Positions 14,252 to 62,367 of a stretch of 64,000 bases of DNA are shown in pieces. The position numbers were made by a program, and so were the translations under genes. The notes below the pieces were generated by a model. That model was not told the origin of the DNA. It made no database searches and was given only the letters and a program-made list of their open reading frames with translations. Position 1 is the first letter of the stretch. Each line of letters starts with the position of its first letter. This stretch comes from Terfezia claveryi (Eukaryota > Ascomycota > Pezizomycetes > Pezizales > Pezizaceae): assembly GCA_015179025.1 (NCBI GenBank), contig WHUX01000225.1, forward strand, positions 18,950-82,949, given 5' to 3'.

Positions 14252-14297
14252 GTCCCTTGCTAGTGTCAGCAACTAAGCAAGGGACATCCCTTTTCCC
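14252..14297 (-). promoter_or_regulatory. -1 frameshift signal at the gag-pol junction of B
   Basis: On the minus strand the heptamer G GGA AAA (14291-14297) sits in the gag frame, followed by a 5-nt spacer (14286-14290) and a stem-loop (14252-14285) with arms GTCCCTTGC / GCAAGGGAC, one bulged base and TAGT / ACTA. The gag stop lies inside the stem. Slipping one base back leads into the pol frame. Equivalent modules are present in C, E and F. Confidence 0.82.
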
Positions 14298-15394
14298 GGC
14301 TCTTCAACTTCAGATATCGCATGGGCTGCTAAGGGGCGATTCCTACGGAGGGGGCAGGCTGCGATGAAGTGATCGGCCTTCCCACAGGCGATACACAACC
14401 TATTATTCCGGCGACGTTCCCTCTCTTCCTGGGTCAGGCGGGGTCTGCCCGCGGATAGGTCCATAGGGGCTGGTCCGCCAGCCACTAGCAAGGGGTGAGC
14501 TGGTGTGCTGGCGGGTGGCTGGGGGCGAGCATTTGGGAAGAGAGTGCGGGGGGCTGCAGTTGTGGAGGGTTTCAGGCTGTTCTTGAACCTGGCCATTTTC
14601 TGTTCTAACCGACTGGCCTGGTCGATTAGTTCTTCTAGGGTGGTGACATCTGGGAAGTTGATGAGGGCTTGTCTCAACTCCGTGGAGAGGCCTTCCTGGA
14701 ATTGCTCCAATTTCACCTTATCGTTCCAGTCGACTTTAGTAGCCAACCTAGAGAATTCGGCCACATAAGTGGCGAGGTCAGTATTTTTTTGTCGAAGTGC
14801 CCGGAGGGCTCGGGTCGCCGTTCCCTCTGGGTCTGGGTCCCCAAACGCTCGGTCCAAGATGACGAAAAGGGCGGGAACGTCCGCTAGATTGACCCCTGTT
14901 TCCAACACATAGGGCTGGACTTGGTCCAGAGCTTTTCCCTCCAGCAGACCGTAAACGTAGGCGAGTTTGTGCTGGGTGGTTGGAAACTTAGCAGCATCCC
15001 CACTGAGTTTAATACTGATGGAGTTTTTCCAGGCCTTGAGGCGGGCCTGTTCGCCATTGTACTTTAGTGGGGTGGGGAGGTCTTGGGTCTTTGCAGGCAT
15101 GGTATTCGCTGGTGCCTGTGTTTTATGGTCGGCTAGGGCACGGTTAAGGTTCCGAATGGTTAGGCGGTCATCGGCCAATTCCTCTCGGAGGAGGAGGATC
15201 TCATCCTCAGCATCCTTCAGTTTTTGTTCGGTCTTTTGGAGCTCTGCTCCTTGTTGCGCACTGATGGCGTATGTAGCTGCAAATATGTCGACAATAGTTC
15301 GTCGATAGGTTACTAGCTCTGCAGGATCCGAGGGAATTGGAGTTGCTCGCCAGATTTCGTACCTTTCGGTGGGTCGGAGAGTTGTTTCGGACAT
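14273..15394 (-). CDS. gag: Element B Gag, intact, 373 aa
   Basis: The capsid/nucleocapsid precursor starts MSETTLRPTE at 15394 and ends ..GKGMSLA with a TAG at 14273-14275. Residues about 45-100 form a heptad-rich coiled coil (Glu/Leu-rich). The region 110-270 is the gag domain, with PTPLKYNGEQARLKAW, VYGLLEGKALDQ and RALRALRQKNTDLATYVAEFSRLA. Near the C-terminus a CCHC knuckle, CIACGKADHFIAAC, binds RNA. No stop or shift is seen, unlike C, E and F. The start is the first ATG after the primer site, and related starts (MSG.., MSA..) occur at the same distance in C, F and E. Confidence 0.92.
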   Translation of the reverse strand: MSETTLRPTERYEIWRATPIPSDPAELVTYRRTIVDIFAATYAISAQQGAELQKTEQKLKDAEDEILLLREELADDRLTIRNLNRALADHKTQAPANTMPAKTQDLPTPLKYNGEQARLKAWKNSISIKLSGDAAKFPTTQHKLAYVYGLLEGKALDQVQPYVLETGVNLADVPALFVILDRAFGDPDPEGTATRALRALRQKNTDLATYVAEFSRLATKVDWNDKVKLEQFQEGLSTELRQALINFPDVTTLEELIDQASRLEQKMARFKNSLKPSTTAAPRTLFPNARPQPPASTPAHPLLVAGGPAPMDLSAGRPRLTQEERERRRNNRLCIACGKADHFIAACPLRRNRPLAAHAISEVEEPGKGMSLA

Positions 15395-15738: not shown

Positions 15739-16367
15739 CAGCATTTATTACCATTCTCGAAAATGCATTCGGCGATCCAAATCGAGTAGCCAACACAGAG
15801 TACAAACTACAAATGATGATTCAGGGGGCCAGGGAGTTCACTGCCTATTTTGCAGAATTTCAACGATATGCAGCTGAAACGAGTTGGGGTAATACGGCTA
15901 AGTTGGCAGCTCTAAAGCACGGACTTTCCTACCAACTACAACAAGATCTCCTCACCATACATCCTGAGCCCACGGAGTTTAACGAGTATGTGGAGGTCTG
16001 CCAAAGGCTGGATACTCGTCGCCACGCGCTACAAACCCAAATGCGTAATCGTGTTGGACCAACGCCCTGAATGATATCACGCCCTACCGCTCCCGCTCCA
16101 GTTAACCCCCAAATAGTCTAAACTCCCTCTACCTCTACAACCACGGGTACTCACCCTGGGCCTATAGATTTGTCTGCAGGAAGGAAGAAGATATCTCCGG
16201 AGGAAAAAGCAAAGAGAATGGCTGAAGGGAGGTGCTATTATTGTGGAGGAATGGGACATGGGGTTAGAACTTGCCCACACATACAAAAACGTACCCTACA
16301 AGTTGCCGAAACAGTTATGGAAAATACGAATAAGGGACTAGAAGTTGGGGAACAGGCAAAAGAGTAG
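15739..16367 (+). pseudogene. gag: Element A gag, C-terminal part
   Basis: The frame resumes with AFITILENAFGD and continues through REFTAYFAEFQRYAAE, a typical end of the retrotransposon gag domain. A TGA at about 16068 and a TAG near 16119 interrupt it. The last part has a canonical CCHC knuckle, CYYCGGMGHGVRTC, at 16221-16262, and ends at a TAG at 16365-16367. Pol lies in the -1 frame after it, as in B, C, E and F, but I do not find their slippery heptamer or 34-nt stem here. Confidence 0.85.
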
Positions 16368-22998: not shown

Positions 22999-23062
22999 TA
23001 TACATAAATCCAGACCCCTGTTTATTTCCTAGGCTGAGAGTTTTTATCTAAACAGGGAGGCA

Positions 23063-28990: not shown

Positions 28991-29079
28991 TCATGCGTAC
29001 AGCTGTACAAGATTTAGTTATACCGATAGCTATCAAGGGTAAAAACAATAAGGATAAAATCAAGGAATGACCTTTGTCA

Positions 29080-40564: not shown

Positions 40565-41734
40565 ATGTCCGGAACCCCTTCACCCGCTATCAGGTTTCAA
40601 ACCTGGAGGAGCTCTCCCATACCCTCAGGCTTGAACGAGTTGAATGCCTACTGTCGAGAAATTATCAACATCTTCGAAGCCATGGATACCATCAGGGCCG
40701 AACTCAGCAACAGCCTGGCCATGGCTGAACGAAAATTGAGATCTGCTGACGAAGAGATCACGGTCCTCCAGACCGATCTCGACCATGTGAACCTTGCCCT
40801 AGCTATCAAAAGGACCACGGTCCAAAACCTCAGCTAGGCCCTAGCAAACCTGGCAATACTAACAACAACAGCAGCCAGTAACAACAAGACCGAAAGCATC
40901 CCGACTCCCCCCAAGTTCAATGGGGATTGGGTTCACCTACGAGCCTGGAAAAATGATGTCAATCTCAAGCTGAACAGGGATTCTGCCAGGTTTCCGTCAG
41001 AACAACATCGACTGGTATACGTTTTCGCCTTGCTGGAGGAGAAAGCTTATGATCAGATCCAGCCATATGTCCTCAAAACCAGGATCAAGCTTGATGATAT
41101 CTCAGCTCTTTTCACAATCCTGGATAGGGCATTCGGGGACCCCGATGCCATTGGCACTGCCAGTAGCGCCCTCTGAGCCCTCAGGTAGAAAAACACTGAT
41201 CTGTCCACTTATGTGGCAGAATTCTCGAGACTGGCAGCAGAGGTCCGATGGAATGACCAGTCCAAACTGGAGCAATTCCAGGAAGGGCTAAATGACGAAA
41301 TCCAGCAGGCCATGGTCAACCTCCCGGAAGCCAAAACCCTTGATGAATTGATTGACTAGGCTTCCCAGGTGGAACAGCAGATGTTCTGGCTCCGCAACCA
41401 CCCCACGTTCAGGTCAGCACCCCATCTCCCACAACCCCAGCCTCAGCAACACCATGCCACCAAAATAGCTCAGGCCCCTGCCAATAAACTAGCACATCCA
41501 TTATTGGTGGCAGGAGGGCCCACCACTATGGACCTATCATCGGGAAGGCCTCGACTAACCCAGGAGGAAAGGGACCACCACCACACTAATAGGTTGTGCA
41601 TTGCGTGTTGAAAAGGGGACTACTTTGTTGCGGCATGTCCCCTCTGACAAAACCACTCCCTGGCCACTCATACTATCTCGGAAGCCTGGATTGAGGAGAT
41701 TGATGAGACGGGAAAAGCTCTGTCCCTTGCCTAG
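40565..41734 (+). pseudogene. gag: Element C gag
   Basis: Starts MSGTPSPAIRFQTW at 40565. It keeps the coiled coil (SADEEITVLQTDLDH), the gag domain (PPKFNGDWVHLRAWKN, FALLEEKAYDQIQPYV, FTILDRAFGDPDAIGT) and CIAC..GDYFVAACPL at the knuckle, where a TGA replaces a Gly codon. Further stops are TAG after QNLS, TGA and TAG in the RALRALRQ block and TAG before ASQVEQ. It ends ..GKALSLA at TAG 41732-41734 as in F. F and C gag are close relatives; C is the more decayed. Confidence 0.87.
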
Positions 41735-43660: not shown

Positions 43661-44395
43661 CCAACGCTATAGGTTCCACGTCTGGCGTTGCTGAACCAGG
43701 GCCCCAAATCGCTCTCTTCTACAATGCACACCCGCTCACCGCTTGCATCTACGACGCTCTAACATCAGCCAGCTACGTACCACTAATGCAGCCATTGAAT
43801 ATGCATGGAGCAGAAATATCCATTGTATTCACTAAAATTATATACACAGAGGTATTGAGCAATAGATATATATATAGAACATGCAATCGCTGCTTCAATC
43901 GCTTTAACACTCGCTCTAATACTCGCTCTAATACTCGCTCTAATACTCGATCCAATACTCGCTCTAATACTCGCTCTAATACTCGCTCTAATACTCGCTC
44001 TAATACTCGCTCTAATACTCGCTCTAATACTCGCTCTAATACTCGCCGTAATACTCGCTCCAATAGTCACTCTAATGCTAGCCGTAATGTGCTGGGATAG
44101 AGAGCGAAGGGAAAATGCACGGGAAGGGAGGTATATATACAGGAAAACGATAGTTGCCAAGGCCGACTGCTATGGCCGACAATTTAGACTTTCCGAGGAC
44201 AATGAGATAAGCGATAACAAGAGAAGTGGCATGACAGTGATCAATGGCGCTCAGCCCCCTTTCGCACGCGGGTGCCGTACTATTCAATGCCTGGCCTGGA
44301 AATAGTCATATTGGGCAATCGTAGTCGTGGTATTGCGATATGTGCGGAGTTCACGCTTTGTGATATGTTTCGTAGGAATTCATGCATTCGTGGGC
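43661..44395. repeat. FB left inverted arm
   Basis: Pairs in reverse with about 46061-46730. Shared blocks include GGTTCCACGTCTGGCGTTGC, CTACGACGCTCTAACATC and the region around TCATATTGGG and GTGCGGAGTTCACGC. No coding frame. It contains the 12-bp minisatellite. Confidence 0.8.
43906..44090. repeat. 12-bp minisatellite in the FB left arm
   Basis: About twelve tandem copies of ACTCGCTCTAAT with a few variants (CGATCC, CGCCGT). The inverted arm has the same array with fewer copies (46366-46500), so copy number has changed since the arms were made. Open frames across it are an effect of the 12-bp period. Confidence 0.9.
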
Positions 44396-46060
44396 TTATA
44401 TATATATATGCGCGAGAAACTCGTGCTTTTGGAGACTTATATATATATATGCGAGAAACTCATGCTTTTGGAGACATATAAGCCGCGAATGCATGGATTT
44501 CTCGCATATATGTATATATATGTCTCCAAAAGCACGAGTTTCTCGCACATATATATATATATATGCACGCGAATGCATGGATTTCTCGCATATATATATA
44601 TATGTCCCCAAAAGCATGAGTTTCTCGCACATATATATATAACTCTCCAAAAGCACGAGTTTCTCGCATATATATATATATATGCCCGCGAATGCATGGA
44701 TTTCTCGCATATATATATATATATATGTCTCCAAAAGCACGAGTTTCTCGCACATATATATATATATGCCCGCGAATGCATGGATTTCTCGCATATATAT
44801 ATATATGTCCCCAAAAGCATGAGTTTCTCGCACATATATAGATATATATGCCCTCGAATGCATGGATTTCTCGCATATATATATATATATATGTCTCCAA
44901 AAGCACGAGTTTCTCGCACATATATATATATATATGCACGCGAATGCATGGATTTCTCGCATATATATATATATGTCCCCAAAAGCATGAGTTTCTCGCA
45001 CATATATATATAACTCTCCAAAAGCACGAGTTTCTCGCATATATATATATATATGCCCGCGAATGCATGGATTTCTCGCATATATATATATATATATGTC
45101 TCCAAAAGCACGAGTTTCTCGCACATATATATATATATGCCCGCGAATGCATGGATTTCTCGCATATATATATATATGTCCCCAAAAGCATGAGTTTCTC
45201 GCACATATATAGATATATATGCCCTCGAATGCATGGATTTCTCGCATATATATATATATATATGTCTCCAAAAGCACGAGTTTCTCGCACATATATATAT
45301 ATATATGCACGCGAATGCATGGATTTCTCGCATATATATATATATGTCCCCAAAAGCATGAGTTTCTCGCACATATATATATAACTCTCCAAAAGCACGA
45401 GTTTCTCGCATATATATATATATATGCCCGCGAATGCATGGATTTCTCGCATATATATATATATATATGTCTCCAAAAGCACGAGTTTCTCGCACATATA
45501 TATATATATGCCCGCGAATGCATGGATTTCTCGCATATATATATATATGTCCCCAAAAGCATGAGTTTCTCGCACATATATAGATATATATGCCCGCGAA
45601 TGCATGGATTTCTCGCATATATATATATATATATGTCTCCAAAAGCACGAGTTTCTCGCACATATATATATATATGCCCGCGAATGCATGGATTTCTCGC
45701 ATATATATATATATGTCCCCAAAAGCATGAGTTTCTCGCACATATATAGATATATATGCACGCGAATGCATGGATTTCTCGCATATATATATATATGTCC
45801 CCAAGAGCATGAGATTCTCGCACATATATATATATAAGTCTCCAAAAGCACGAGTTTCTCGCATATATATATATATATGCCCGCGAATGCATGGATTTCT
45901 CGCATATATATATATATATATGTCTCCAAAAGCACGAGTTTCTCGCATATATATATATATATGCCCGCGAATGCATGGATTTCTCGCATATATATATATA
46001 TATGTCCCCAAAAGCACGAGTTTCTCGCACATATATATATATATGCCCGCGAATGCATGA
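44396..46060. repeat. FB core: higher-order tandem array with 371-bp period
   Basis: Two kinds of monomer of about 41 bp alternate: one with GCGAATGCATGGATTTCTCGC, the other with CCAAAAGCAYGAGTTTCTCGC, each followed by an AT dinucleotide run. Variants of the second (GTCTCC, GTCCCC, AACTCTCC) recur in fixed order, giving a nine-monomer higher-order unit of 371 bp: the AACTCTCC marker lies at 44641, 45012 and 45383. Two monomers at the left (44396-44480) are in opposite orientation, so the axis of symmetry of FB is near 44480 and the array expanded on the right side only. Confidence 0.88.
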
Positions 46061-46730
46061 ATTCCTACGAAACATATCACAAAGCGTGAACTCCGCACAT
46101 ATCTCCATACAACGACTACGATTTCCCAATATGACTATTTCCAGGCTAGGCATTGAATAGTACGGCACCCGCGGGCGAAAGGGGGCTGAGCGCCATTGAT
46201 CACTGTCATGCCACTTCTCTTGTTATCCCTTATCTCATTGTCTTCGGAAAGTCTAAATTGTCGGCCTTACCAGTCGGCCTTGGCAACTATGGTTTTCCTG
46301 TTTATATACCTCCCTTCCCCTCGCATTTTCCCTTCGCTGTCTATCCCAGCACATTACGGCTAGCATTAGAGTGACTATTGGAGCGAGTATTACGGCGAGT
46401 ATTAGAGCGAGTATTAGAGCGAGTATTAGAGCGAGTATTAGAGCGAGTATTAGAGCGAGTATTAGAGCGAGTATTGGAGCGAGTGTTAGAGCGAGTGGAG
46501 CAGCGATTGCATGCTCTATATATATATCTATTAATCAATACTTCTGTGTATATAATTATTAGCGAATACAATGGATATTTCCGCTGCGTGCATATTCAAT
46601 GGCTGCAATAGTGGCTACGTACCTGGCCGATGTTAGAGCGTCGTAGATGCAAGCTGGTAGCGGGTGTGCATTGTAGAAGAGAGTGATTTGGGGCCCTGGT
46701 TCAGCAACGCCAGACGTGGAACCTATACCG
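46061..46730. repeat. FB right inverted arm
   Basis: Reverse complement of the left arm with scattered substitutions, from GAATTCCTACGAAACATATC near 46058 to GGAACCTATACC near 46730. It includes the reversed minisatellite GAGCGAGTATTA, about nine copies (46366-46500). Confidence 0.8.
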
Positions 46731-46978
46731 TTAACAACCTCAATTGAGTTGAGGACGCGATGGCAATGAGCGCTGACATCCAGACGTTGAGCTTATGTCA
46801 ACCACCGTCCGGACGGCTTTTGGGGCCCCAATGGCGTCAGGACGCAGCGCGGGGCCCTAGTTGCGTCCGGATTGTAATGCAATACCCCGGGGCATCCGGA
46901 CGCACAGGACGCACAGGACGCAAAATCGCGTCTGGACGCTTGGTGGTGCGTCCTGACGCATATTTCTTTTTGCTGATG
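46731..46978. repeat. FB right subterminal repeats and terminus
   Basis: GC-rich words GGCGTCAGGACGCA, GTTGCGTCCGGA, GGACGCACAGGACGCACAGG and GACGCTTGGTGGTGCG (46935-46950), then an A/T-rich stretch and TTTTTGCTGATG. Most similar to the right end of P1, which has GCGCTTGGTGATGGTG at 21818-21833 and ends CTGATG. Confidence 0.7.
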
Positions 46979-47974
46979 ATTGTGGCCCCCCTCACAGCCC
47001 TGACCAAAAAAGACCAGCGATTCCACTAGAGTCTAGAAGCCCAATTTGCCTTCCAGAACCTTAAGGAAGCCTTCTGCTCAGCACCCATACTTGCCCACTT
47101 TGATCTCGATAGTGAGTGTATCATGGAAACGGATGCCTCCGACTATGTCTCTGCCAGAATCCTGTCCCAGTATGTCAATGGAGTCCTCTACTAGGTGGCC
47201 TATTTCTCCAAAAAGCACTCCCCAGTGGAGTGTAATTACGAGATCTATAATAAGGAATTAATAGCCATTGTCCGAGTTTTTGAGAAATGGAGGCCTCACC
47301 TGGAGTCAGCCAAGGGTATCGTCGAGGTGCTATCCGATCATAAGAATCTTGAGTACTTCACCACCACTAAGATGTTGAACTGACGGCAGGCTAGGTGGTC
47401 GGAGTTCTTATCTCGATTCAGCTTCAAGATCAAGTATTGGCCTGAAAAAGCTGGGGGTAAGCCAGACGTACTGACTAGGAGATCAGGAGACCTCCCTAAC
47501 TTAGGGGGGGATGAAAGGCTGAAGTACTAAAATTAGGTAGTACTGAAACTTGAAAATCTTGACCTGGCGGCCAATAGCCTTGCTGTGGCTGATACTGATG
47601 CTGATGCTGATACTGATGCTGATGCTGATGCTGATGCTGAGGCTGATGCTAAAGCTGAAGCGAATCCTGGAGCAGATCTCCTTCTATGGATATGACAGAC
47701 ATATGCGGAGGATGACCTGGTTAAAGATATAATCGCCGCAGTGGAGTCTGGATAGCGCCATCATACCAAGATTTCCCTAGCCGAGTGCACTACCCAGGAT
47801 GGCCTCCTATACTACCTAGATCGACTCTATATACTTGAAGGGGAGCTGCAGATGCAGCTAATCAAGGAACACTATGATACCCTAGCTGTGGATCATCCTA
47901 GAGTAGCTAAAACGTTGGAGCTGCTAGCTAGGCAATATATGTAGTTTGACCAATAGAAGGAGCTAGAGCGGTAC
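46979..47974 (+). pseudogene. pol: Element C RNase H, Ala-Asp linker and start of integrase
   Basis: Continues the C pol frame after FB. RNase H: ETDASDY at about 47129, [10 protein letters not shown] near 47248, [10 protein letters not shown] near 47332; stops TAG and TGA occur at former Gln, Trp or Arg codons. The linker (47585-47680) is a run of GCTGAT repeats, coding alternating Ala-Asp in pol frame. The integrase zinc region begins ([25 protein letters not shown], with the Gly of AGHPG lost) and is cut at GGTAC by E. Confidence 0.82.
47970..47974 (+). repeat. Target-site duplication of element E, left copy (GGTAC)
   Basis: GGTAC precedes E and follows it at 54167-54171. Removing E restores ERY..RNCHVCK in the C integrase. 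Confidence 0.93.
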
Positions 47975-48518
47975 TGTAACGTGGGCTCTGGAAACAAGGC
48001 GACCAAGGGGTACGCCGGGGAGAAGGCAGAGGCTAGGGCAAGACACACGTAGGAACGCTACGTGTGTGACTAGGGGAAGGCTGAGGCGGGAGACAAGGGC
48101 GAGAGGCAAGAGAGACAGTGGGCAAGGGGCACGAGACACGCGGAGGTAGTTGCCGCGTGTGTCAGGGTCAGGGGAGGCAGCTGGGCTACAGAGACAAGGC
48201 GAGGCAAGGCAAGGACAGGAGGTTCGCGGGGTGGGCAGCAGGGCTGCAGAGTCGAGGCGAGACAAGGAGGTGCACAAGGGAGATGCACCAACGTGGAGAG
48301 AAGCAAGGCCCTGTATTGGATATACAAGACATTGGATAGGGATCCAACGAGAGGGCGGAGAGAGCAAGCTATATATACAGGCTTCCTTCCTGGCCAAGGC
48401 CACCGGAAGGAATAAGGTTCCCGAGACCCCTTATCTCGGGAACAGAGATAACAACGATATCAATCAACAATAACGCCGTCCGACTCTCAAACCTGGCTAG
48501 GAAAGGACAGTTGTGACA
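47975..48518 (-). repeat. 3' LTR of element E
   Basis: 544 bp. On the plus strand it runs TGTAACGTGGG..TTGTGACA. A TATATATA box lies at about 48369-48376, and a hairpin GTTCCCGAGA / TCTCGGGAAC at 48417-48443, upstream of the TATA box in element orientation. Confidence 0.95.
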
Positions 48519-48535
48519 CTATCCCCCCTTTAGGC
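48519..48535 (-). promoter_or_regulatory. Polypurine tract of element E
   Basis: Minus strand GCCTAAAGGGGGGATAG directly before the 3' LTR. Confidence 0.85.
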
Positions 48536-48675
48536 TCGGAGCTCCAGCGACTAGGAGGCCTGGGCATGATAACCGGCAAAATCAACACAGGAAACAACAA
48601 CAACAAGGTAAGGACAAAAACCCCAACTCCGAATAACAAGAACATAAACAACAACAAGAATGCAAAGTCACGACC

Positions 48676-49734
48676 TCAGTCGACTGGGCGAGGCTTCCTG
48701 AGGTATCGCTGGTGGAACAGGGTAACCAAATCCTGCACATTCTCCAAGTCCTCTGCGGGTTGCCAAGTGGCCTCCTCGTCCCCTAACCACTTGACCTTAT
48801 ACTGAACTCGTCCATAGTGTTTCCTTGAGTCCAGTACCTCCTCAACCTCCCACTCTTCTTCACCTGCGATCACTACTGGAGGAGGTGGGGGGTGCTTTTG
48901 CCCGGGAAGGGGATAGTCGGCGGCTGGCTCGATCTCCGAGACATGAACGACCGGATGGCGCTTGATATCCTTGGGAAACCTCAGCCGGTAAGCATGAGTG
49001 CTCACAGCTGCTAACACCTCATAGGGGCCTAGGAACTTGTGATCCAACTTACGAGAGGGTCGTTCTGTCCGGAAGTGTCTGCTAGAGAGCCATACCTTGT
49101 CTCCTGGTTAGTATTTGGGGGCCGGTAACCTAGACCCGTTAGCATATTCTGCTTGCCTGACCTGAGCATAACCCAACTCAGTCTTCAGGGTAGAGTGGAG
49201 TTCAGAAATCTGCGTGGCGAACTCCTTGGCTGGGGCATTCTCCCTGGCCTTGCGCAGAGGTGCTAGGGAGTCTATGAACCGAGGGTGCCAGCCATAATTG
49301 GCCAGGAATGGGGACGTTTTCAGCGACTCGGAGAACTGGTTGTTGGCGGCAAATTCACAGGTTGCTAGCAACGAAACCCAGTTGTTCTGCTGGTAGCTGA
49401 CAAAGGCCCGCAGATACTGTTCCATAATCGCATTCATCCTTTCCGATTGGCCGTCCGTCTGGGGGTGGTAAGCTGTTGACAGATGAACTTTGATCCCCAG
49501 AAGTTCGCAGAAGGCTTGCCAGAATTCTGAGGTAAACTGAGGGCCACGGTCGGACACGATCGATTCAGGGAGGCCATGGTATCGGAATATATTATTGAGG
49601 TAGAGGTTGGCTAACTCCGGAGTGGAGCAGGTATCCCGGCAGGGTATAACATGCCTCATCTTCGTCAACCAATCCACCACTATCAGGATGGCATTGAATC
49701 CCGAGTCCTTCGGCAACCCAGTTACAAAGTCCAT
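48676..49734 (-). pseudogene. pol: Element E integrase core and chromodomain
   Basis: On the minus strand MDFVTGLPKDSG holds the first catalytic Asp, SDRGPQFTSEFW the second and TDGQSERMN the Glu. The frame continues through the C-terminal region to a TAA for Gln at 49108-49110 (before [15 protein letters not shown]), then [12 protein letters not shown] and a complete chromodomain: [35 protein letters not shown] (48750-48860). It ends after LFHQRYLRKPRPVD. Among the B/C/E/F group E has the best chromodomain; F and B have stops there. Confidence 0.9.
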
Positions 49735-50976
49735 GGTCAGGTGTTACTAGGGCCGATCCGGGATCTCCAGGGGCTTCAAGGTTCCGTAGGGGGCATGACG
49801 AGTGGGTTTTGCACGCTTGCAGATATGGCAGTTCCGTATGTACTGTTCTACCTCCTTTCGCTGGTCGATCCATGTGTATTGTCTGGCTAGTAGTTCTAAT
49901 GTCTTAGCCACTCCAGGGTGGCCTGCAGCCAGGGTATCTTGGTGTTCCTTGATCAGCTGCATCCGCAGCTCCCCTTCAGGTATATAGAGCCGATCTAGGT
50001 GGTATAGGAGGCCGTCCTGAGTGGTGCACTCGGCTAGGGAAATCTTGGTATGACGGCGCTGTCCAGACTCCACTGCGGTAATTATATCCTTAACCAGGTC
50101 GTCCTCCGTATATGCCCGTCGTATCCGCAGAAGGAGATCTGCTCCGGGGTTCGCTTCAGCTTCAGCATCAGCATCAACATCAGCATCAGCATCAGCATCA
50201 GCATCAACATCAGCATCAGGGTTAGCTTCCACATCAGCCTCAGCCTCAGCTTCAGCTTCCGCAAGGGTATTGGCTGCCAGGTCGAGATTTTCGGGTTTCA
50301 GTGCCACCTGATTCTGGTACTTCAGCCTTTCATCCCCCCCTTTAGGGAGATCTCCTGATCTCCTGGTCAGTGCATCCGGCTTACCCCCAGCCTTTCCCGG
50401 CCGATACCTTATCTTGAAGTTAAACCGAGAGAGGAATTCTGACTACCTAGCCTGTCGGCAATTTAGCAATTTGGTGGTTGTGAAGTATTCTAGGTTCTTA
50501 TGGTCAGAGAGGACCTCGATAACCCCCTTTGCCGATTCCAGGTGTGGTCTCCATTCCTCGAATGCTCGCACAATGGCCATTAACTCCTTATCATAGATTT
50601 CGTAATTACACTCCGCCGGGGAGTGCTTTTTGGAGAAATAGGCTACTGGGTGGAGGACTCCATCGACATACTGGGACAGGATTCCAGCGGAGACATAGTC
50701 GGAGGCGTCCGTTTCCACGATGCACTCGCTATCAGGGTCAAAATGGGCCAGGATTGGGGCTGAGCAGAAGGCTTCCTTGAGGTTCTGGAAGGCGGATTGG
50801 GCTTCTGGATTCCAGTGGAAGGCCCTTTTTGTCAGGTGTGAGCCAGCTTCTACCTTCGTTTTCGTCAAGGCCGTCAGGGGTGCCACGATTCTTGAGTATC
50901 CCAAGATAAATCGGCGGTAGAAGTTGGCAAATCCTAGAAGGCCTGCACATCCTTCAAATTGGCTGGGGTTTCCCAC
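49735..50976 (-). pseudogene. pol: Element E RNase H, Ala-Asp linker and integrase zinc region
   Basis: Minus-strand frame: [23 protein letters not shown] (end of reverse transcriptase), [28 protein letters not shown] and [10 protein letters not shown] (RNase H acidic residues kept), a TAG for Trp at 50443-50445, then a linker of about 40 residues built from Ala-Asp, Ala-Glu and Val-Asp pairs (50150-50270). The zinc region [20 protein letters not shown] and RNCHICKRAK follows, and the frame stops near 49747. The linker is the longest of the four related elements. Confidence 0.87.
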
Positions 50977-51530
50977 TCTTGGATTGCAGCAACTTTGGCG
51001 GGGTCATCCTAATACCTTCCGTGGTTATGATCAAGCCCAGGTACTTCACCTCTTGGACGTGGAATTCGCATTTTTCAGGCTTAAGGTACAGCCCAGCCTG
51101 CTCCAGCTTCTCCAGCACTTGTCGAACGTGGATCTTGTGTTCCACTAGGGTATCCGAGTAGATGAGGATATCGTCCAGGTAGGCGGTGCAGAATACATCC
51201 AGAAAGTCCCGCAGAGTGTCATTGATAAAGTGCTGAAAGGAGGCGGGGGCGTTGGTTAGGCCGAAGGGCATCACATTGTACTCAAAATGGCCATATCGCG
51301 TCCGGAAGGCAGTTTTCCACTCCTCCCCCTCAGCAATTCGTACCAAGTTGTAGGCCCCTCTCAGATCCAATTTGGTGAACCATTTGGCCTTGGAGAGCCT
51401 GGCTAATGTCTCCTGGATCAGGGGCAAGGGGTACCTGTTTTTTACCGTAATTTCATTCAGGCCACGATAATCCACGCACAACCTAAGGGAGCCGTCCGAC
51501 TTCTTCACGAACAGCACCGGGGCACCCACT
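50977..51530 (-). pseudogene. pol: Element E reverse transcriptase
   Basis: [63 protein letters not shown] and [11 protein letters not shown] give a well-preserved polymerase. Small frameshifts at about 51525 and 51005 separate it from the protease and RNase H frames. Catalytic Asp residues are kept. Confidence 0.88.
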
Positions 51531-52436
51531 GGGAGGAGCTGTGGCGAATGAAGCTCTTGTTGAGGTTTTCCTCCAGATACTTTTTCAGAGCTTCCAGTTC
51601 CATCCGGGACATCCCATAGAGAGGTCCATAAGGGGGGGTCTTACCTTCTACCAGCGGGATTGTGTGGTCGTATGGTCGATGGGGGGCAAGCTTCTCCGCG
51701 GCTTTCTCAGAGAACAAGTCAATGAATTCGTGGTATTCACCCGGCACCATGGACTTCCATTCTTCCTTGGACCGCAGCTTATTGATTTCCAGGTTAACTT
51801 CGCAGATTGATAGAGTATGGGCTTTCAGCTTGTGCCTTCTGGTAAGGTAAGCAAAGGCCCCTGCTCCAATGAAGTTGATATCGAGGGGTTTTAGTGGGGG
51901 CGTTTCTGCCATCACCTGGCTAGGATCCTCTATCGGGGGTGGTAGGGCACATAATCCTTTAACGGCAGTCTGTGGGGCACCGCAGTGCTTCTCGCAATAC
52001 CCGCTATTAAAGTTCAAGGTGTAAGAGCCAAAGTTAACGGAGACATCATGCATTTGGAGCCAGGGGATCCCCAGGACAATGGGGTATTTGAGCTTGGTTA
52101 CAAACATGGGGAGGCTTTCCGAATGGTCTCCAATGGCACTAGGTAGGCATGCGAGGTCGGTAATAGCCCCGGAAGAGATAGGTCGGCCATCAATGACATC
52201 AAGAAGGCGGGGGGTCTTTAGCTTGGCTGTTGGTATCGAATTTTTACTGACAAAGGTCTGATCAATGAAGGCTATTCCTGAAGCACCACAATCTATGAGA
52301 GCTGATATTACCACTGTTTTACCATTGAATTTAATAGTTATTGGTACTACAAAATGCTCGCCAAACAAGCGAGATTCGTCAACAGACATAGATGCAGGAA
52401 CAGAGAAAGACGACAAAGACAAATGACCCAGGATAG
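51505..52436 (-). pseudogene. pol: Element E protease and family-specific N-terminal pol region
   Basis: Minus-strand frame from just after the frameshift stem. [17 protein letters not shown] (near 52290-52300) is the active site, D-C-G type, followed by [22 protein letters not shown]. After a short Pro-rich linker come [19 protein letters not shown] and [25 protein letters not shown], leading into reverse transcriptase. Open for 305 codons, ended by a shift. Confidence 0.87.
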
Positions 52437-52482
52437 GTCCCTTGCTAGTGTCAGTGACTATGCAAGGGACAGGGCTTTTCCC
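52437..52482 (-). promoter_or_regulatory. -1 frameshift signal at the gag-pol junction of E
   Basis: Minus strand: heptamer GGGAAAA (52476-52482) in gag phase G GGA AAA, spacer of 5 nt (52471-52475), stem-loop 52437-52470 with arms GTCCCTTGC / GCAAGGGAC and a bulged A. The gag TAG is within the stem. Confidence 0.83.
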
Positions 52483-53591
52483 GACTCATCCACCTCTTCA
52501 ATCCTGGATTCGGAGATGGCGTGGGCGGCCATCGAGCGGTTTTTGCGGAGGGGACATGCCGCGATAAAATGGTCCCCCTTTCCGCATGCAATGCACAAAC
52601 CCTGAGTGCGGCGACGGTCCCTTTCCTCCTGGGTAAGACGAGGTCTACCTGCTGACAGGTCCATGGGGGCAGCCCCACCCGCTATCAGGGAGGGGTGTGC
52701 AGGCTTGTTGACTGGTGTGGGTTATTGTTGTTGGGTGCGTGCTGTCAGAAATGGTGTACGGGGAGTCGAGGTCGGGAGTGTCTTTTGGGGGGCTCTGAGT
52801 GCCGCTGTCTGCTGTTCCACCCAGCTAGCTTGTTCAATAAGTCCCTCCAGGGTCTTGGTCGGTGGGCAGTAAACCAGAGCCTTTTTCAGCTCGAAGGTAA
52901 GCCCGTTTTTGAACTGATCGAGCTTGGCTTCGTCATTCCAATTGAGCTCTGCTGCTAGCCTGGAGAACTCAGCGACATAGGCTGACAGTTCGTTGTGTTT
53001 TTGCTTGAGGTCTCGCAGGGCCCTGCTGGCGGTTTCTTTAGGATCCGGGTCTCCGAAGGCTCGGTCCAGGATTGCCATTAGTGCTGGGATGTCTACCAGA
53101 TCAATCCCCGTGGCCTTGACGAAGGGCTGTACCTGGTCCATGGCCTTACCCTCCAGTAGGCCATAGACGTATGAGAGCTGGTGGTGGACGGTGGGGAACT
53201 TCGCCGAGTCCCCAGAGAGTTTTATCTGCACAGAGTTTTTCCATGCTCGTAGCCGGCCCCGGTCCCCATTAAACTTGGGCGGGGTGGGTAGGTCTTGTGT
53301 TTTCTGGTTTTTTGGACCATCGGTCAGGTCCAAAGCGGGAGTCAGTCTCCGAATGGTTATCCTGTCCTCTGCTGCATCTTCTCGGAGGAGGGTTATTTTA
53401 TCTTCAGCTTCTTGGATTCGCCTTTCGGCTTTCTGAAGGTCCGCTCCTTGTTGTTCGCCGATGGCATAAGTATCTGTGAATATCTCGATCACAGTTCGTC
53501 GGTATGCTGATAGTTCTGTTGGGTCTGATGGGATCGGAGTCGCCCTCCAGGCTGCGAATCTATCGGTGGGTAGTGGAATGTTCGCGGACAT
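52458..53591 (-). pseudogene. gag: Element E gag, one stop
   Basis: Starts MSANIPLPTDRFAAWRATPI at 53591, two codons closer to the primer site than in B but equivalent. Coiled coil at about residues 35-75 (QKAERRIQEAEDKITLLRED), gag domain (PPKFNGDRGRLRAWKN, VYGLLEGKAMDQVQPF, ILDRAFGDPDPKETAS), and the knuckle CIACGKGDHFIAAC near 52570-52612. One TAA at 52722-52724 interrupts a Gln run and fits CAA to TAA. Ends ..GKALSLA. Otherwise full length, 377 codons. Confidence 0.9.
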
Positions 53592-53609
53592 CGTACCGGT
53601 TGGTCTGAA

Positions 53610-53622
53610 AGATCCAACGTAG
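53610..53622 (-). promoter_or_regulatory. Primer-binding site of element E, self-priming type
   Basis: ATCCAACGT on the plus strand at 53612-53620 (minus ACGTTGGAT) follows the 5' LTR and is complementary to the site at 53977-53985 in that LTR, about 40 nt after the TATATATA box. Confidence 0.7.
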
Positions 53623-54166
53623 TGTAACGTGGGCTCTGGGAACAAGGCGACCAAGGGGTACACCGGGGAGAAGGCAGAGGCTAGGGCAAGACACACGTAG
53701 AAACGCTACGTGTGTGACTAGGGGAAGGCTGAGGCGGGAGACAAGGGCGAGAGGCAAGAGAGACAGTGGGCAAGGGGCACGAGACACGCGGAGGCAGTTG
53801 CCGCGTATGTCAGGGTCAGGGGAGGCAGCTGGGCTGCAGAGACAAGGCGAGGCAAGGCAAGGACAGGAGGTTCGCGGGGTGGGCAGCAGGGCTGCAGAGT
53901 CGAGGCGAGACAAGGAGGTGCACAAGGGAGATGCACCAACGTGGAGAGAAGCAAGGCCCTGTATTGGATATACAAGACGTTGGATGGGGATCCAACGAGA
54001 GGGCGGAGAGAGCAAGCTATATATACAGGCTTCCTTCCTGGCCAAGGCCACCAGAAGGAATAAGGTTCCTGAGACCCCTTATCTCGGGAACAGAGATAAC
54101 AACGATATCAATCAACAATAACGCCGTCCGACTCTCAAACCTGGCTAGGAAAGGACGGTTGTGACA
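53623..54166 (-). repeat. 5' LTR of element E
   Basis: 544 bp, same length as the 3' LTR. TATA box near 54017-54026 and the presumed RNA start at 53985 on the minus strand. Confidence 0.95.
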
Positions 54167-54171
54167 GGTAC
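54167..54171 (+). repeat. Target-site duplication of element E, right copy (GGTAC)
   Basis: Second GGTAC copy; the C integrase resumes with YI/RNCHVCK. Confidence 0.93.
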
Positions 54172-55477: not shown

Positions 55478-55852
55478 TGTCACAACCGTGTTCTTAGTCT
55501 TGATTTGACACTCGAATAGGCTTGTTCAGGTGTTGTGCTGTTTTGATACTCAAATAGGCTTGTTCGGGTGTCGTTGATAGGTTATCATTACCTTGCTTGG
55601 CTTCCGAGATAAGGGATCTTGGAAATCTTATTCCTTCCATTACCCTGGCCCAGAATTATATATATATAGCCCCTGTCCCTCGTACTGTCATTGAATCCCT
55701 ATCCAACATCTTGTATATCCAATACAGGACCTTGCCTCTCCCAGCACTTATGCACCTCCCTTGTGCACCCCCTTGTCTCATGAACAGCTCTGTAGCACAG
55801 CTGCCTCCCTCCAACATATGCGGCAACTGCCTCTGCGTGTCTCGTGTCCCTT
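55478..55852 (+). repeat. 3' LTR of element C, first 375 bp
   Basis: Starts TGTCACAACCGTG and matches the 5' LTR. It has two copies of the 30-nt palindrome (55506-55535 and 55544-55573) and a TATATATATA box near 55659. It is cut by D3 at 55853; the rest should lie beyond the window. Confidence 0.88.
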
Positions 55853-56180
55853 TGTAATGGAGAACGTTGTTTCATTGCTTATATAATTGATTATATACTT
55901 TTGTATTTCCTATATTACTACTATGTTATGTAACTAAGTCTCTCGGTTGAAGGACTAGCCTTCTACCACCTCCTATTGCTTTATAAACGTCCATAGCACG
56001 CGGAATTTGCCATGGGAACTTTTATGGAACTTGCCATATGAGCACACCCTCATTATGGCCGCATGACCTCTGTTTAAAGGCGTGTGACTTATTGCTATAG
56101 CCACATGACCATCGTTTAAGGCGTGTGACTCATTACTATAGCCACATGACCCTTTTTGAATAGCGCACCACCTTCTGGTG
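55853..56180 (+). repeat. 5' LTR of D3, left part
   Basis: Starts TGTAATGGAGAACG, the unmutated form of the D LTR start. Holds three copies of the ATAGCCACATGAC-type unit (56058-56150). Interrupted after CTTCTGGTG by element F; continues at 62368. Confidence 0.9.
56176..56180 (+). repeat. Target-site duplication of element F, left copy (TGGTG)
   Basis: TGGTG before F and again at 62368-62372. Removing F gives the uninterrupted D LTR sequence CTTCTGGTGTGCCACC. Confidence 0.93.
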
Positions 56181-56675
56181 TGTCACAACCATCCCCTCCT
56201 AGCCTAGTTCAGCGAGTCCGACTCTTGTTATGACTGTTATTCTGTGTTGGTTATCATGGTTATCTCAGCTTCCGAGATAAGGGGTCTCGGGAACCTTATT
56301 CCTTCCGGTGGCCTTGGCCAGCCCGGAAGGAAGCCTGTATATATAGTGCGCTCTCTCCACCCTCTCGTTGGATCCCTATCTAATGTCTTGTATATCCAAT
56401 ACAGGGCCTTGCTTCTCTCCACATTGGTGCATCTCCCTTGTGCACCTCCTTGTCTCGCCTCGACTCTGCAGCCCTGCTGCCTCCCTTGACACACGTGGCA
56501 ACTGCTTCCACATGTCTCGTGTTCCTTGCCCTCTGTCCCTCTTGCCTCTTGCCATTGCCTCCCGTCTCAGCCTCCCCCTGGTCACACACGTAGCGTTCCT
56601 ACATGTGTGTTATCCTAGCCTTGCCCTTGCCCCGGCGTACCCCTTGGTCGCCTTGCCCCCTGAGCCATCGTTACA
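56181..56675 (+). repeat. 5' LTR of element F
   Basis: 495 bp, TGTCACAACC..CGTTACA. Hairpin CCGAGA / TCTCGG near 56273-56292 upstream of the TATATATAG box at 56337-56345. The presumed RNA start reads ATCTAATGT here (changed), ATCCAACGT in the 3' copy. Confidence 0.95.
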
Positions 56676-56711: not shown

Positions 56712-57929
56712 ATGTCAGGAGTAGGTCTCCCACCACCCGCTGTCAGGTTTCAAACCTGGAGGAGCTCCCCCATACCCTCAGGCTTGAACGAGTTGAATGC
56801 CTACCGTCGAGAAATCATCAACATCTTCGAGGCCATGGATGCCATCGGGGCCGAACTCGGCAACAGCCTGGCTGTGGCTGAAAACAGCTTGGCCGTGGCT
56901 GAACAAAAATTGAGATCTGCTGACGAAGAGATCACGGTCCTCCAGACCGATCTCGACCATCTGAACCTTGCCCTGGCCAACGAACGGACTACGGTCCAAA
57001 ACCTCAGCCGCGCTCTAGGGTACCTTGCAATACCAACAGCAGCCAGTAGCAACAAGACCGAAAGCATTCCAACACCCCCCAAGTTCAATGGGGACCAGGT
57101 TCGCCTACGAGCCTGGAAAAATGCTGTCAATCTCAAGCTGAACGGGGATTCTGCCAGGTTCCCGTCAGAACAACATCGACTGGCATACGTTTTCGCCTTG
57201 CTGGAGGGGAAAGCTTGTGACCAGATCCAGCCATACGTCCTTGAAACCGGGATCAAGCTCAATGATATCTCGGCCCTTTTCACAATCCTAGATAGGGCAT
57301 TCAGAGATCCTGATGCAGTGGGGACGGCCAGTCGAGCGCTCCGGGCACTGAGACAGCGCAACTCAGAGCTGTCTACTTACGTTGCAGAGTTCTCAAGGCT
57401 GGCTGCAGAGGTAAGGTGGAACGACCAGGCTAAGTTCGAGCAATTCCAGGAGGGGCTCAGCGATGAGCTCCAACAAGCCATAGTTACCCTTCCTGCGGTT
57501 GATACCCTCGAGGAATTGATCAACCAGGCCTCCATGGTAGAGCAACGAATGGCCAGGTTACGCCACCGACCGGCCTTCCGACCAACCACCCACCCAGCAT
57601 AACAGCAGCAGCAGCCGAAGCCAGCCCAATCCTCCACAACAACCACGACCCTGGCCAACAAACCAGCATATCCTTCGCTGGTGGCAGGAGGGCCCACCCC
57701 TATGGACCTATCATCGGGAAGGCCTCGACTAACCCAGGAGGAAAGGGACTGCTGCCGCACTAATGGGTTGTGCATTGCTTGTGGTATGGGGGACCACTTC
57801 ATTGCCACCTGCCCCCTCAGGAAGAACAGCCCCCTGGCCGCCCATGGTATTTCCGACCGCCCAGCCAATACCCTGGAACCCAGGATCGTGGAGGTTGATG
57901 AGTCGGGAAAAGCCCTGTCCCTTGCCTAG
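56712..57929 (+). pseudogene. gag: Element F gag, one stop
   Basis: Starts MSGVGLPPPAVRFQTW at 56712, the first ATG after the primer site. Coiled coil at residues about 45-105, with an ENSLAVAE duplication absent from C. The gag domain (PPKFNGDQVRLRAWKN, FALLEGKACDQIQPYV, ILDRAFRDPDAVGTASRALRALRQ) spans about 118-280. A TAA at 57600-57602 lies in a Gln-rich stretch and fits CAA to TAA. After it come GGPTPMDLSSGRPRLTQEER and the knuckle CIACGMGDHFIATC. Ends ..SGKALSLA at TAG 57927-57929. Without the stop it would be 405 residues. Confidence 0.92.
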
Positions 57930-57950
57930 TTACTGACACTAGCAAGGGAC
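57905..57950 (+). promoter_or_regulatory. -1 frameshift signal at the gag-pol junction of F
   Basis: Heptamer GGGAAAA at 57905-57911 in gag phase G GGA AAA, spacer GCCCT (57912-57916), then a stem-loop at 57917-57950: arms GTCCCTTGC / GCAAGGGAC, a bulged C, TAGT / ACTA and a 7-nt loop. Pol is in the -1 frame and open from the slip site; its nearest upstream stops are the two TGA codons about three codons before the heptamer. Confidence 0.85.
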
Positions 57951-57970: not shown

Positions 57971-60900
57971 TTGTCTTTGTCTGCATTTTCTGTGTCTTCC
58001 GCTTCTTCTGTTGTTGACGAATCTTGCTTGTTCAGCGAGCATTTTGTTGTATCTATCTCCTTCAAAATCAATAATGATAGAACAATTTCTACGTCAGCAC
58101 TCATAGATTGTGGAGCCTCAGGAATTGCATTCGTTGACCAGGCCTTTGTCAGTAAATTCTCCATACCCACGTCCAAGCTCAAAACCCCCCGTATTCTGGA
58201 TGTCATCGACGGTCGACCCATCTCCTCCGAGGATATCACCGATATTGCGTACGTGCCTGCCCTAGTCGGGGATCACTCCGAGGCAAACCTCCCAAGGTTC
58301 GTGACAAAGCTCAAATACCCAATTGTCCTTGGAATCCCCTGGCTTAGAATGCACGATGTATCAGCCAGCTTCGGCTCCTATACCCTGCAGTTCAACAGCC
58401 AATATTGCAAAAAGTACTGCAGGAACCCAAAGGCCACCGTCACTGGGTTGTGTGCCTTGCCTACCCCGATAATCCACCCGACTCAGGTGGTACACCTGCC
58501 TGCGCACCTCGATGGCAATTCCCCTGTTCTCCCTGTGCCCCCTGTTCCCCCTGTGCCCCCTGTTCCCCCTGTGCCCCCTGTTTCCCCTGTGCCCCCTGTT
58601 CCCCAAAAGCCTCTGAAAGTTAGCTTCATCGGGGCAGGGGCTTTCGCTTACCTCACCAGGAGGCACAAGCTGAAGGCTCATGCCCTGTCCATACACGAGG
58701 TGAACCTGGAGATTACTAAGACATGGTCGAAGGAGGAGTGGAAGTCCATGGTACCGGACGAATACCACGAATTCATCGACCTGTTCTCGGAGAAGGCCGC
58801 AAAAAAGCTCGCACCCCACCGGCCATATGACCATACTATTCCGCTGATAGAGGGTAAGACCCCCCCCTATGGGCCCCTCTACGGAATGTCCCAGTTGGAG
58901 CTGGAGGCCCTGAAGAAATACCTGGAGGAAAACCTCAACAAGAGCTTCATTCGCCATAGCTCTTCTCCAGCGGGTGCCCCTGTGCTGTTTGTGAAAAAAT
59001 CGGATGGCTCTCTTCGGTTGTGTGTGGACTATCGTGGCCTGAACGAGATAACGGTCAAGAACAGGTATCCCCTGCCTCTAATTCAGGAGACATTAGCCAG
59101 GCTTTCCAAGGCCAAATGGTTCACCAAACTGGATTTGAGAGGGGCATACAACCTGGTACGGATTGCCAAGGGGGAGGAGTGGAAAACGGCCTTCCGAACT
59201 CGCTATGGCCACTTCGAGTACAATGTCATGCCCTTCGGCTTAACCAACGCCCCGGCCTCTTTCCAACACTTTATCAATGATACCCTGCAAGACTTCTTGA
59301 ATGTGTTCTGCACGGCTTACCTCGACGATATCTTGATTTATTCGGATACCCTAGCAGAACACAAGATTCATGTCCGGCAGGTGTTGGAAAAGCTGGAGCA
59401 AGCCGGATTGTACCTCAAGCCCAAGAAATGCGAGTTTCATGTGCAAGAGGTCAAGTATCTGGGGTTAATCATCACCACGGAGGGCATCAGGATGGACCCT
59501 GCCAAGGTTACCGCTGTCCAGGAATGGCAAATCCCAGCGAATCTCAAGGATGTCCAGGCATTCCTGGGGTTCGCCAACTTCTACCGGCGTTTTATCCTGG
59601 GATATTCGAAGATCATAGCCCCCCTCACTGCCCTGACCAAAAAAGACTGGCGCTTTGACTGGAATTCAGAAGCTCAGTTGGCCTTCCAGAACCTCAAGGA
59701 AGCCTTCTGCTCAGCACCGATCCTGGCACATTTCGACCCTGACCAGGAATGTGTCGTCGAAACCGATGCTTCCGATTATGTCTCCGCGGGAATCCTCTCT
59801 CAGTATGTCAACGGCATCCTCCACCCAGTGGCCTACTTCTCGAAAAAGCACTCCCCAGCTGAGTGCAACTACAAGATCTACGACAAGGAGCTGATGGCCA
59901 TCGTGCGAGCATTCGAGGAATGGAGGCCACACCTGGAGTCAGCCAAGGGGATTATCGAAGTACTTTCCAACCATAAGAACCTTGAGTACTTTACCACCAC
60001 CAAGCTGCTCAACCGATGGCAGGCCAGGTGGTCGGAATTCCTCTCTCGGTTCAACTTTAAGATCAAGTACCGACCCGGAAAAGCTAGTGGCAAGCCGGAT
60101 GCGCTAACCCGGAGATCAGGAGATCTCCCTAACGGGGGGGATGAAAGGCTAAAATACCAGAATCAGGTGGTATTGAAGCCCAAAAACCTTGATCTGGTGG
60201 CCAATGTCCTTGCTGAGGCTGAGGCGGAAGCCGACCTACGACAACTGGTGAGACAGGCATACGAGGATGACCCCCTGGCCAAGGAAATCATCGCCGCAGT
60301 GGATTCCGGCCAGCGCCGCCACCCCAAGATCTCATTGGCCAAATGTACCATCCAGGAGGGCCTTCTATACCACTGGGAACAGCTCTATATACTAGAGGGA
60401 GGAGGGTTACGCCTGAGGCTGATCGAGGAACACCACGATACCCTGGTGGCGGGTCACCCTGGAGTGGCCAAGACGTTAGAGCTTCTGGCCAGGGAATACA
60501 CCTGGATTGACCAGCGGAAGGACGTGGAGCGGTACATACAGAACTGCCATGTTTGCAAGCATGCTAAGCCTGTCCGCCATGCCCCGTATGGGACCCTGAA
60601 ACCTCTGGAAATTCCAGATCGGCCCTGGCTGCACCTTACCATGGATTTCGTGACGGGATTGCTGGAAGACTCGGGGTTCAACGCCATCCTGATGGTGGTT
60701 GATCAGTTGACAAAGATGAGGCATGTTATACCTTGCCGGGATACCTTCTCTGTCCCAGAGTTAGCCAACCTCTACCTCAATAATGTATTCCGGTACCACG
60801 GCCTCTCTGAATCGATCGTGTCCGACCGTAGCCCTCAGTTCACCTCGGACTTTTGGAGAGCCTTCTGCGAGCTTCTGGGGATTAAAGTGCACTTGTCAAT

Positions 60901-61573
60901 GGCATATCACCCCCAGATGAACGGCCAATCGGAGAGAATGAACGCCATCATGGAGCAGTATCTGCGAGCTTTTGTCAACTACCAGCAGGATAACTGGGTT
61001 TCATTGCTGGCCACCTGCGAATTTGCAGCGAACAACCAATTCTCAGAGTCCTCGAAAACATCCCCCTTCCTGGCCAATTATGGTTGGCACCCCCGATTCG
61101 TGGACACCCTAGCTCCCCTGCAAAAAGCCAAAAAAGACGCCCCAGCTAAGGAGTTCGCAGCTGGAATTGCTGAGCTCCACTCCACCCTGAAGTCAGAATT
61201 GGCATACGCACAGGCCCGGCAATCGGAATATGCAAACAACTCGAGATTGGCAGCTCCAAGGTACCAGCCAGGGGATAAGGTGTGGCTCTCCAGTCGCCAT
61301 TTCCGGACAGAGCGCCTGTCCCGCAAGCTGGATCATAAGTTCCTGGGCCCCTTCGAGGTATTAGCAGCTGTGGGGACTCATGCCTATAGATTGAGGTTCC
61401 CCAAGGACATCAAACGCCACCCGGTCGTTCATGTCTCCGAGATCGAGCCCGCCGCGGAGGATCCCCTTCCAGGGCAGAAACACCCCCCACCCCCTCCCGT
61501 GGTTATCGAAGGTGAGGAGGAATGGGAAGTAGAGGAGGTACTTGATTCGCGGAAGAGATATGGGCGTGTGTAG
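57971..61573 (+). CDS. pol: Element F Pol polyprotein, 1200 codons open
   Basis: The enzyme polyprotein, expressed by frameshift from gag; 57971 is not an ATG and the frame is open back to the slip site. Protease: Asp at residue 46 in IDCGASG, then [19 protein letters not shown] Pro-Val-Pro repeat linker spans about 185-215. Reverse transcriptase: [35 protein letters not shown] at 450-453. RNase H: Asp 599 in ETDASD, Glu near 640, but [10 protein letters not shown] has Asn 667 where B, C and E have Asp. Ala-Glu linker near 745. Integrase: [16 protein letters not shown] zinc region (about 820-870), MDFVTG, SDRSPQF and SERMN give D, D, E. The frame ends in the chromodomain at a TAG (61571-61573) where E has Gln. 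Confidence 0.95.
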
Positions 61574-61859: not shown

Positions 61860-61875
61860 GCCTAAAGGGGGATAG
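61860..61875 (+). promoter_or_regulatory. Polypurine tract of element F
   Basis: GCCTAAAGGGGGATAG directly before the 3' LTR. Confidence 0.85.
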
Positions 61876-62367
61876 TATCACAACCGTCCCTCCTAGCCTA
61901 GTTCTGCGAGTCTGACTCTAGTTATGACTGTTATTCGTGTTGGTTATCGTGTTATCTCAGCTCCCGAGATAAGGGGTCTCGGGAACCTTATTCCTTCCGG
62001 TAGCCTTGGCCAGCTCGGAAGGAAGCCTGTATATATAGTGCGCTCTCTCCACCCTCTCGTTGGATCCCTATCCAACGTCTTGTATATCCAATACAGGGCC
62101 TTGCTTCTCTCCACGTTGGTGCATCTCCCTTGTGCACCTCCTTGTCTCGCCTCGACTCTGCAGCCCTGCTGCCTCCCTTGACATATATGGCAACTGCTTC
62201 CGCGTGTCTCGTGTCCCTTGTCCTCTGTCCCTCTTGCCTCTTGCCATTGCCTCCCATCTCAGCCTCCCCCTAGTCACACACATAGCGTTCCTACGTGTGT
62301 GTTATCCTAGCTTTGCCCTTGCCTCGGCGTACCCCTTGGTCGCCTTGCCCCCTGAGCCGTCGTTACA
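61876..62367 (+). repeat. 3' LTR of element F
   Basis: 492 bp, starts TATCACAACC (TG to TA) and ends CGTTACA. Clear hairpin GCTCCCGAGA / TCTCGGGAAC near 61959-61985. TATATATAG at about 62031-62039. Differs from the 5' copy at a few percent of sites. Confidence 0.95.

Follow-up and report, generated by a model that had tools for sequence, protein, structure and literature searches.

The heptamer GGGAAAA, a 5-nt spacer and a 34-nt stem-loop that encloses the gag stop codon most probably form the signal for gag-pol -1 programmed ribosomal frameshifting in a high-copy Ty3/gypsy LTR retrotransposon family of the ascomycete Terfezia claveryi. This reading is based on sequence, phase, reading frames, predicted fold, conservation throughout the family and the C-terminal peptide of Gag in relatives. 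The signal is very probably real and strongly conserved, and appears to be ordinary in kind and unusually clear.

The module was analyzed in four elements (F, C, E and B) of the window, i.e., the whole stretch of 64,000 nucleotides under study. By pattern search, GGGAAAA-N5-GTCCCTTGC was matched exactly at positions 57905-57925 (+), 41710-41730 (+), 52462-52482 (-) and 14277-14297 (-). When up to three mismatches were allowed, five matches were detected in the window (the fifth being the other arm of C) compared to a mean of 0.51 and a maximum of 3 in 100 shuffles. At all four junctions the heptamer was found in the gag frame as G GGA AAA, the gag frame ended at a TAG within the stem, and pol was in the -1 frame, open from the heptamer for 1222, 155, 325 and 77 codons in F, C, E and B, respectively, with stops after these lengths in the last three. 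The gag frames of F, C and E have a stop upstream of the junction, and in none of the four copies are both gag and pol uninterrupted. The in-phase GGGAAAA, the spacer of exactly 5 nt, the 34-nt stem-loop with the gag TAG inside its stem and the -1 frame of pol, all of which had been claimed for these four elements in an earlier note on this DNA, were thus each borne out in four of four.

Table 1. Coordinates of the elements, modules and junction features in the window.
Element	Feature	Position	Strand	Remark
F	Left LTR	56180..56675	+	94.2% to 61875-62367
F	gag ORF	56712..57602	+	Retrotrans_gag; stop 57600-57602, gag frame then open to junction
F	Slippery heptamer GGGAAAA	57905..57911	+	gag frame G GGA AAA
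F	5-nt spacer	57912..57916	+	sequence very variable, length fixed (131 junctions)
F	34-nt stem-loop	57917..57950	+	predicted fold; 13 pairs, single bulge, loop of 7 nt
F	gag stop TAG	57927..57929	+	within 5' arm of stem
F	pol ORF	57971..61573	+	-1 to gag; frame open from heptamer on
F	Right LTR	61875..62367	+	
C	Heptamer, spacer and stem-loop	41710..41755	+	
E	Heptamer, spacer and stem-loop	52437..52482	-	
E	Protease part of pol	51505..52422	-	-1 frame; Pfam matches below cut-off
B	Heptamer, spacer and stem-loop	14252..14297	-	
B	gag ORF	14273..15394	-	uninterrupted, 373 aa, ending at in-stem TAG
D	GGCAAAA, 5 nt (GAGTA) and 34-nt stem-loop	16355..16400	+	stem-loop unrelated to that of F, C, E and B
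D	Stem-loop	16367..16400	+	
D	gag stop TAG	16365..16367	+	

Folding of 60 nt at each junction, a check proposed in the earlier note, returned a stem-loop with 13 pairs and one bulge in all four elements, with energies of -18.5 to -19.1 kcal/mol (z -2.1 to -3.3). Dinucleotide shuffles that folded as well as the 60-nt stretch numbered 3, 0, 6 and 8 per 200 for F, C, E and B, respectively. The 34-nt stem-loop (-17.7) was the most stable among 268 windows of 34 nt at each of the four junctions. The bulged base, for which C, A, T and C had been reported, was instead computed as C, C, A and T in the order F, C, E, B, and the predicted bulge of B lies one base further on than in the other window copies. 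An Rfam scan of the window detected no family at its gathering score.

The elements were assigned to Ty3/gypsy based on their LTRs, their Gag, and RT and RNase H placed ahead of integrase. The pol of F was found by Pfam to include RT, RNase H, an integrase zinc domain, rve and a Tf2-1-type SH3 domain, and its aspartyl protease was matched only below Pfam's cut-off. A CCHC pattern was seen by eye in Gag, and the RT piece had the Ty3-G Gag-Pol among its two best solved matches (7q5b, E 1.3e-72). No chromodomain was listed at the C-terminus of the F integrase at E up to 1; a C-terminal chromodomain is present in many members of the Tf1/sushi group, not in all. Beside the F pair of Table 1, the LTRs of E and B are 97.8% and 95.4% alike (B over 307 positions compared), and those of C (40006-40380 and 55478-55852) are 87.7% alike. 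Several pol frames elsewhere in the assembly are open for at least 1200 codons.

Element C is interrupted by element E (47971-54166), and C-type pol resumes at 54167, directly past the end of the right LTR of E at 54166. An inverted repeat is also present within element C (43663-46732; 77.8% over 1538 nt), with arms at 44121-44450 and 45990-46319 that are 95% complementary and flank a minisatellite with units of about 41 nt.

The module was then followed across the 72.56-Mb host assembly, in which the exact heptamer-N5-arm pattern was matched 486 times (reversed control pattern, 0) and the arm-N-TAGT pattern 620 times (control, 3). To avoid selection by the junction itself, junctions were collected with a query from outside it, the protease piece of E, whose start lies 15 nt past the hairpin. 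Of at least 165 matches to this query, the 128 that begin at query residues 1-3 (30 plus 98 loci) were used, and C239 (at a contig end) and matches to later parts of the query were left out; the 128 are the best matches, in which distant members are under-sampled. E is among the 128, and with F, C and B they gave 131 junctions that fall into 63 clusters at 95% identity, with a median pairwise difference of 0.155. The loci that had been chosen by the exact module (L001-L030) are not among the 131.

By this approach, GGGAAAA was detected at 114 of the 131 junctions and in 51 of the 63 cluster representatives, the other heptamers being GAGAAAA and AGGAAAA (7 each) and GGGATAA, GGGAAAC and GGAAAAA (one each). 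The spacer was 5 nt long in 131/131 with 17 distinct sequences, the gag TAG was present in 130/131, and all 13 stem pairs could form in 113 copies, 12 pairs in 12 copies and 11 pairs in 6. The arms, described earlier as invariant, are so in F, C, E and B, but carry some substitutions among the 131 copies. A wider family alignment had been named beforehand as a result that might refute the module, and instead it supports the heptamer, its phase and the frame of pol. Similar results were observed for 12 further F-like regions outside the 131, inspected by eye: a junction was found in 11, with GGGAAAA in 10, AGGAAAA in one and a 5-nt spacer in 11/11; in the twelfth (L193) no junction was found at its expected place, which was extrapolated.

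Mean diversity among the 63 representatives was 0.024 and 0.029 in the two arms, compared to 0.472 in the spacer, 0.227 in the gag flank and 0.161 in the pol flank. On a parsimony tree built from the flanks alone, with the module excluded, changes per site came to 1.46 and 1.31 in the arms and 2.29 in the heptamer, and to 9.80 in the spacer, 6.52 in the gag flank and 3.77 in the pol flank. None of 172 flank windows of 34 nt changed as little as the hairpin; among 214 flank windows of 13 nt, one was as conserved as the 3' arm and four were as conserved as positions 13-25.

The 17 copies without GGGAAAA were farther from their nearest relative than the others (median 0.052 vs 0.027, one-sided p 0.0006), as is expected of dead copies. 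In the 41 core columns of the module in the 131 copies, all 64 transitions were G to A or C to T and 13 transversions were counted, compared to 1178 of 1906 transitions and 1250 transversions in 209 flank columns. Judged from these sequences, the substitutions in the module resemble post-insertion decay. The AT-rich part of the window (22001-40000) has only a mild rise in TpA/ApT (1.1 vs 0.72-0.94), and strong RIP is thus not shown; a large AT-rich inverted duplication is also found in the window (27943-32968 versus 34978-40009, inverted; 85.2% over 5035 nt).

The junctions display the features of a -1 signal: a heptamer of the form X XXY YYZ in the phase of the upstream frame, an overlapping downstream gene in the -1 frame and, by predicted fold, a stable stem a few nucleotides downstream. 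In 91 of the 131 junctions the pol frame opens only after a stop 1-2 codons upstream of the heptamer, such that a shift must fall within about 30 nt; the gag/pol overlap is longer in 9, and also in a further 31 in which no upstream pol-frame stop lies within the fetched stretch. Downstream, no stop interrupts the pol frame within the fetched stretch in 125/131. Canonical heptamers in gag phase within the overlap were limited to the 114 GGGAAAA, a single GGGAAAC occupying that position and, in one copy only, another at -51. The reading frames, the phase, the spacer and the stem, together with their conservation, fit the classical slippery heptamer, spacer and stem that the earlier note had recognised in this module.

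We infer that, as ribosomes translating gag arrive at G GGA AAA, the 13-pair stem-loop located 5 nt further on would resist being unwound. The tRNAs for Gly and Lys would, in a minority of ribosomes, re-pair one base back (on GGG AAA), and translation by these ribosomes would proceed along the pol frame (...SGK-SPVPCLVTDTSKGP...). The remaining ribosomes would unwind the stem and halt at the TAG within it to yield Gag. The slip itself, its exact site and efficiency, and the stem as its stimulator belong to this proposed mechanism.

A stimulator of another shape, in which the slip is real and the loop TGAC (positions 30-33, counted from the first G of the heptamer) pairs with GTCA downstream (positions 56-59) to form a pseudoknot, appears unlikely. 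The four additional pairs are all possible in 106 of the 131 sequences and in 46 of the 63 representatives, and hardly any variation is seen at loop positions 30 and 32. By contrast, a C at position 57 breaks the pairing in 15 of the 131, including F and C, while position 32 stays A; GTCA falls in conserved Gly-His codons of pol; and just 9 nt would have to bridge the 13-pair stem.

Compensatory changes in the arms, which the earlier note had suggested looking for, were not found: no double change was detected among the 13 pairs in 131 sequences. Single-side changes in the stem numbered 16 cells that keep a wobble pair and 24 that lose the pair (one via a gap), and, with no double change, this pattern would also be given by plain decay. 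The case for the structure therefore comes from its conservation, predicted stability and position, and from the sister family described below. Part of the conservation is accounted for by coding, since the 5' arm is translated in both frames and the 3' arm belongs to pol.

We also considered whether the conservation reflects a dual-coded peptide rather than RNA structure, with the stem incidental. A Gag search, scored over the 7995 candidates with the most words in common, gave 17 matches from other records, of which 10 (52-61% identity) have the C-terminus GKxxSL(A/V) expected from translation of G GGA AAA NNN NNN TCC CTT G(C/T)N TAG, these relatives being known as protein only; the other 7 (26-45%) are without this end. 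The pol-frame peptide is likewise shared, as GKSGVPCLVADTSKGP is present in P0003, the one sequence with the pol-side motif among the best 120 of 201 protease homologs. These shared peptides and the absence of compensatory changes are what a constraint on protein would give. However, none of 2000 mononucleotide shuffles of the F hairpin was as stable as the hairpin itself, and spacer substitutions in the 131 junctions alter residues in both frames while the length is kept. In the 3' arm, which is single-coded, third positions of pol codons are near-invariant: diversity was 0.043 at positions 34-48 (5 sites) vs 0.248 downstream (47 sites), with a one-sided p of 0.012 from these 5 sites only. 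The sister family, moreover, has an unrelated stem at the same distance from GGCAAAA. A constraint on the peptide with an incidental stem is thus very improbable.

Slightly less probable still is that pol is made by splicing over the gag stop or by reinitiation after the TAG, with the hairpin serving in packaging or RNA stability. A second role for the hairpin is possible; an in-phase canonical heptamer in so short an overlap would nonetheless be superfluous for splicing or reinitiation, and the gag TAG was retained in all but one of the 131 copies.

A sister family (D) was found by search with P0014, which is 48% identical to the E protease, with one copy in the window and further loci at L164-L183 and L196-L201. 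In the window copy pol is in the -1 frame, which stops soon after, and pol is also in -1 in copies L164, L167, L173 and L177. No canonical heptamer is present in the overlap of L164. Among the 27 copies of this type that were fetched or lie in the window, 25 have GGCAAAA and two (L183 and L201) ACTAAAA, followed in all 27 by 5 nt and a stem that starts at the G of TAG. L183 and L201 are more distant and decayed copies. Stem energies ranged from -8.0 to -16.7 in the 27 copies; the stem was the most stable 34-nt window in 8 of 9 copies tested and the third most stable in L168, and the stability of one D-type hairpin was equalled by 8 of its 2000 shuffles.

We tentatively suggest that these two gypsy families and a third, seen as two decayed copies, may keep a layout in which A AAA occupies the A site and is followed by 5 nt and a 34-nt stem-loop that contains the gag stop or has it at the base, the sequence of the stem and the P-site portion of the slip site having been replaced. 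On this view, the GGCAAAA family would dispense with a canonical heptamer and reach the -1 frame chiefly through re-pairing of the Lys tRNA, and conservation of function would lie in the position and size of the stem and not in the identity of the heptamer. Our confidence in this possibility, limited from the outset, was lowered somewhat because L183 has AAAAAAA in phase directly before its TAG, 2 nt ahead of the stem. The non-canonical slip site 5 nt before a stem of its own is the part of this analysis most deserving of a bench test.

The use of -1 frameshifting as a gag-pol strategy of related fungal elements is already in print (PMC10085805, PMC3441728). In the passages of these reports that concern it, -1 frameshifting is described as predominant in Tf1/sushi elements outside the fission yeasts, citing Gao et al. 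2003, with grasshopper corrected to -1 and Tcn1 stated to have a programmed frameshift (PMC10085805), and pol is in -1 in VdLTRE2/3/4 of Verticillium (PMC3441728). Like the family described here, these are fungal Ty3/gypsy elements with pol -1 to gag, and here SH3_Tf2-1 is also found after integrase. The same passages differ in that they give the strategy by reading frame and describe no module of heptamer, spacer and hairpin, and the likeness to the present family is by description, not by sequence, with no chromodomain listed here. According to the relevant part of a review of frameshifting in LTR retrotransposons, PEG10 and Ty3, yeast Ty3 uses +1 (PMC5009743), as the earlier note had stated; Ty3 is likewise Ty3/gypsy, but its +1 shift differs from the -1 frame of pol here. 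PEG10, covered with RTL3 in part of PMC11011659, resembles the present family in its -1 shift between gag- and pol-derived parts of Ty3/gypsy (sushi-ichi) origin. Its stimulator is described in that part of the review as a pseudoknot (PMC5009743), whereas a simple stem-loop suffices for the data here.

Systems of the HIV-1 type, with a canonical X XXY YYZ heptamer, a short spacer and a simple stem-loop as stimulator, are alike in layout and differ in heptamer, stem, host and element. The PEG10 heptamer GGGAAAC is one letter from GGGAAAA. No description of the GGGAAAA module or of the hairpin of the sister family was recognised among titles and abstract openings in the literature, and one may exist. 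One candidate, PMC1142308, was set aside as irrelevant, the letters GGGAAAA occurring, in the passages considered, in a primer table only.

The family provides a natural series in which slip site and stem are near-constant over more than 100 diverged copies and the 5-nt spacer is free to vary, and the sister family adds another stem and a non-canonical slip site in the same genome. Natural variants should thus allow the contribution of each part (heptamer, spacer, stem) to -1 frameshifting in eukaryotes to be tested. The module may also help to annotate gag-pol in retrotransposons of fungi, in which gene prediction is fallible: according to the passage on Tcn1, the predicted gene of this element was given a wrong intron (PMC10085805).

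Further protease homologs were compared with the pol side of the junction. P0031, P0055 and P0059 (37-43%) reach upstream of the protease and are without the pol-side peptide, and several of the 12 homologs inspected for the motif begin downstream of it. Five stretches in viral contigs fit a peptide pattern as candidate relatives, and none was confirmed. By an RPB2 fragment the host looks like an ascomycete, the best hit being at 80% and the named ones among the best 120 of 2348 including Ascosphaera atra (73%) and Tuber melanosporum (72%); an ATP6 search of the assembly gave no match. Among the best 120 of 201 protease homologs, the only named species was Morchella sextelata, with homologs at 42-43%.
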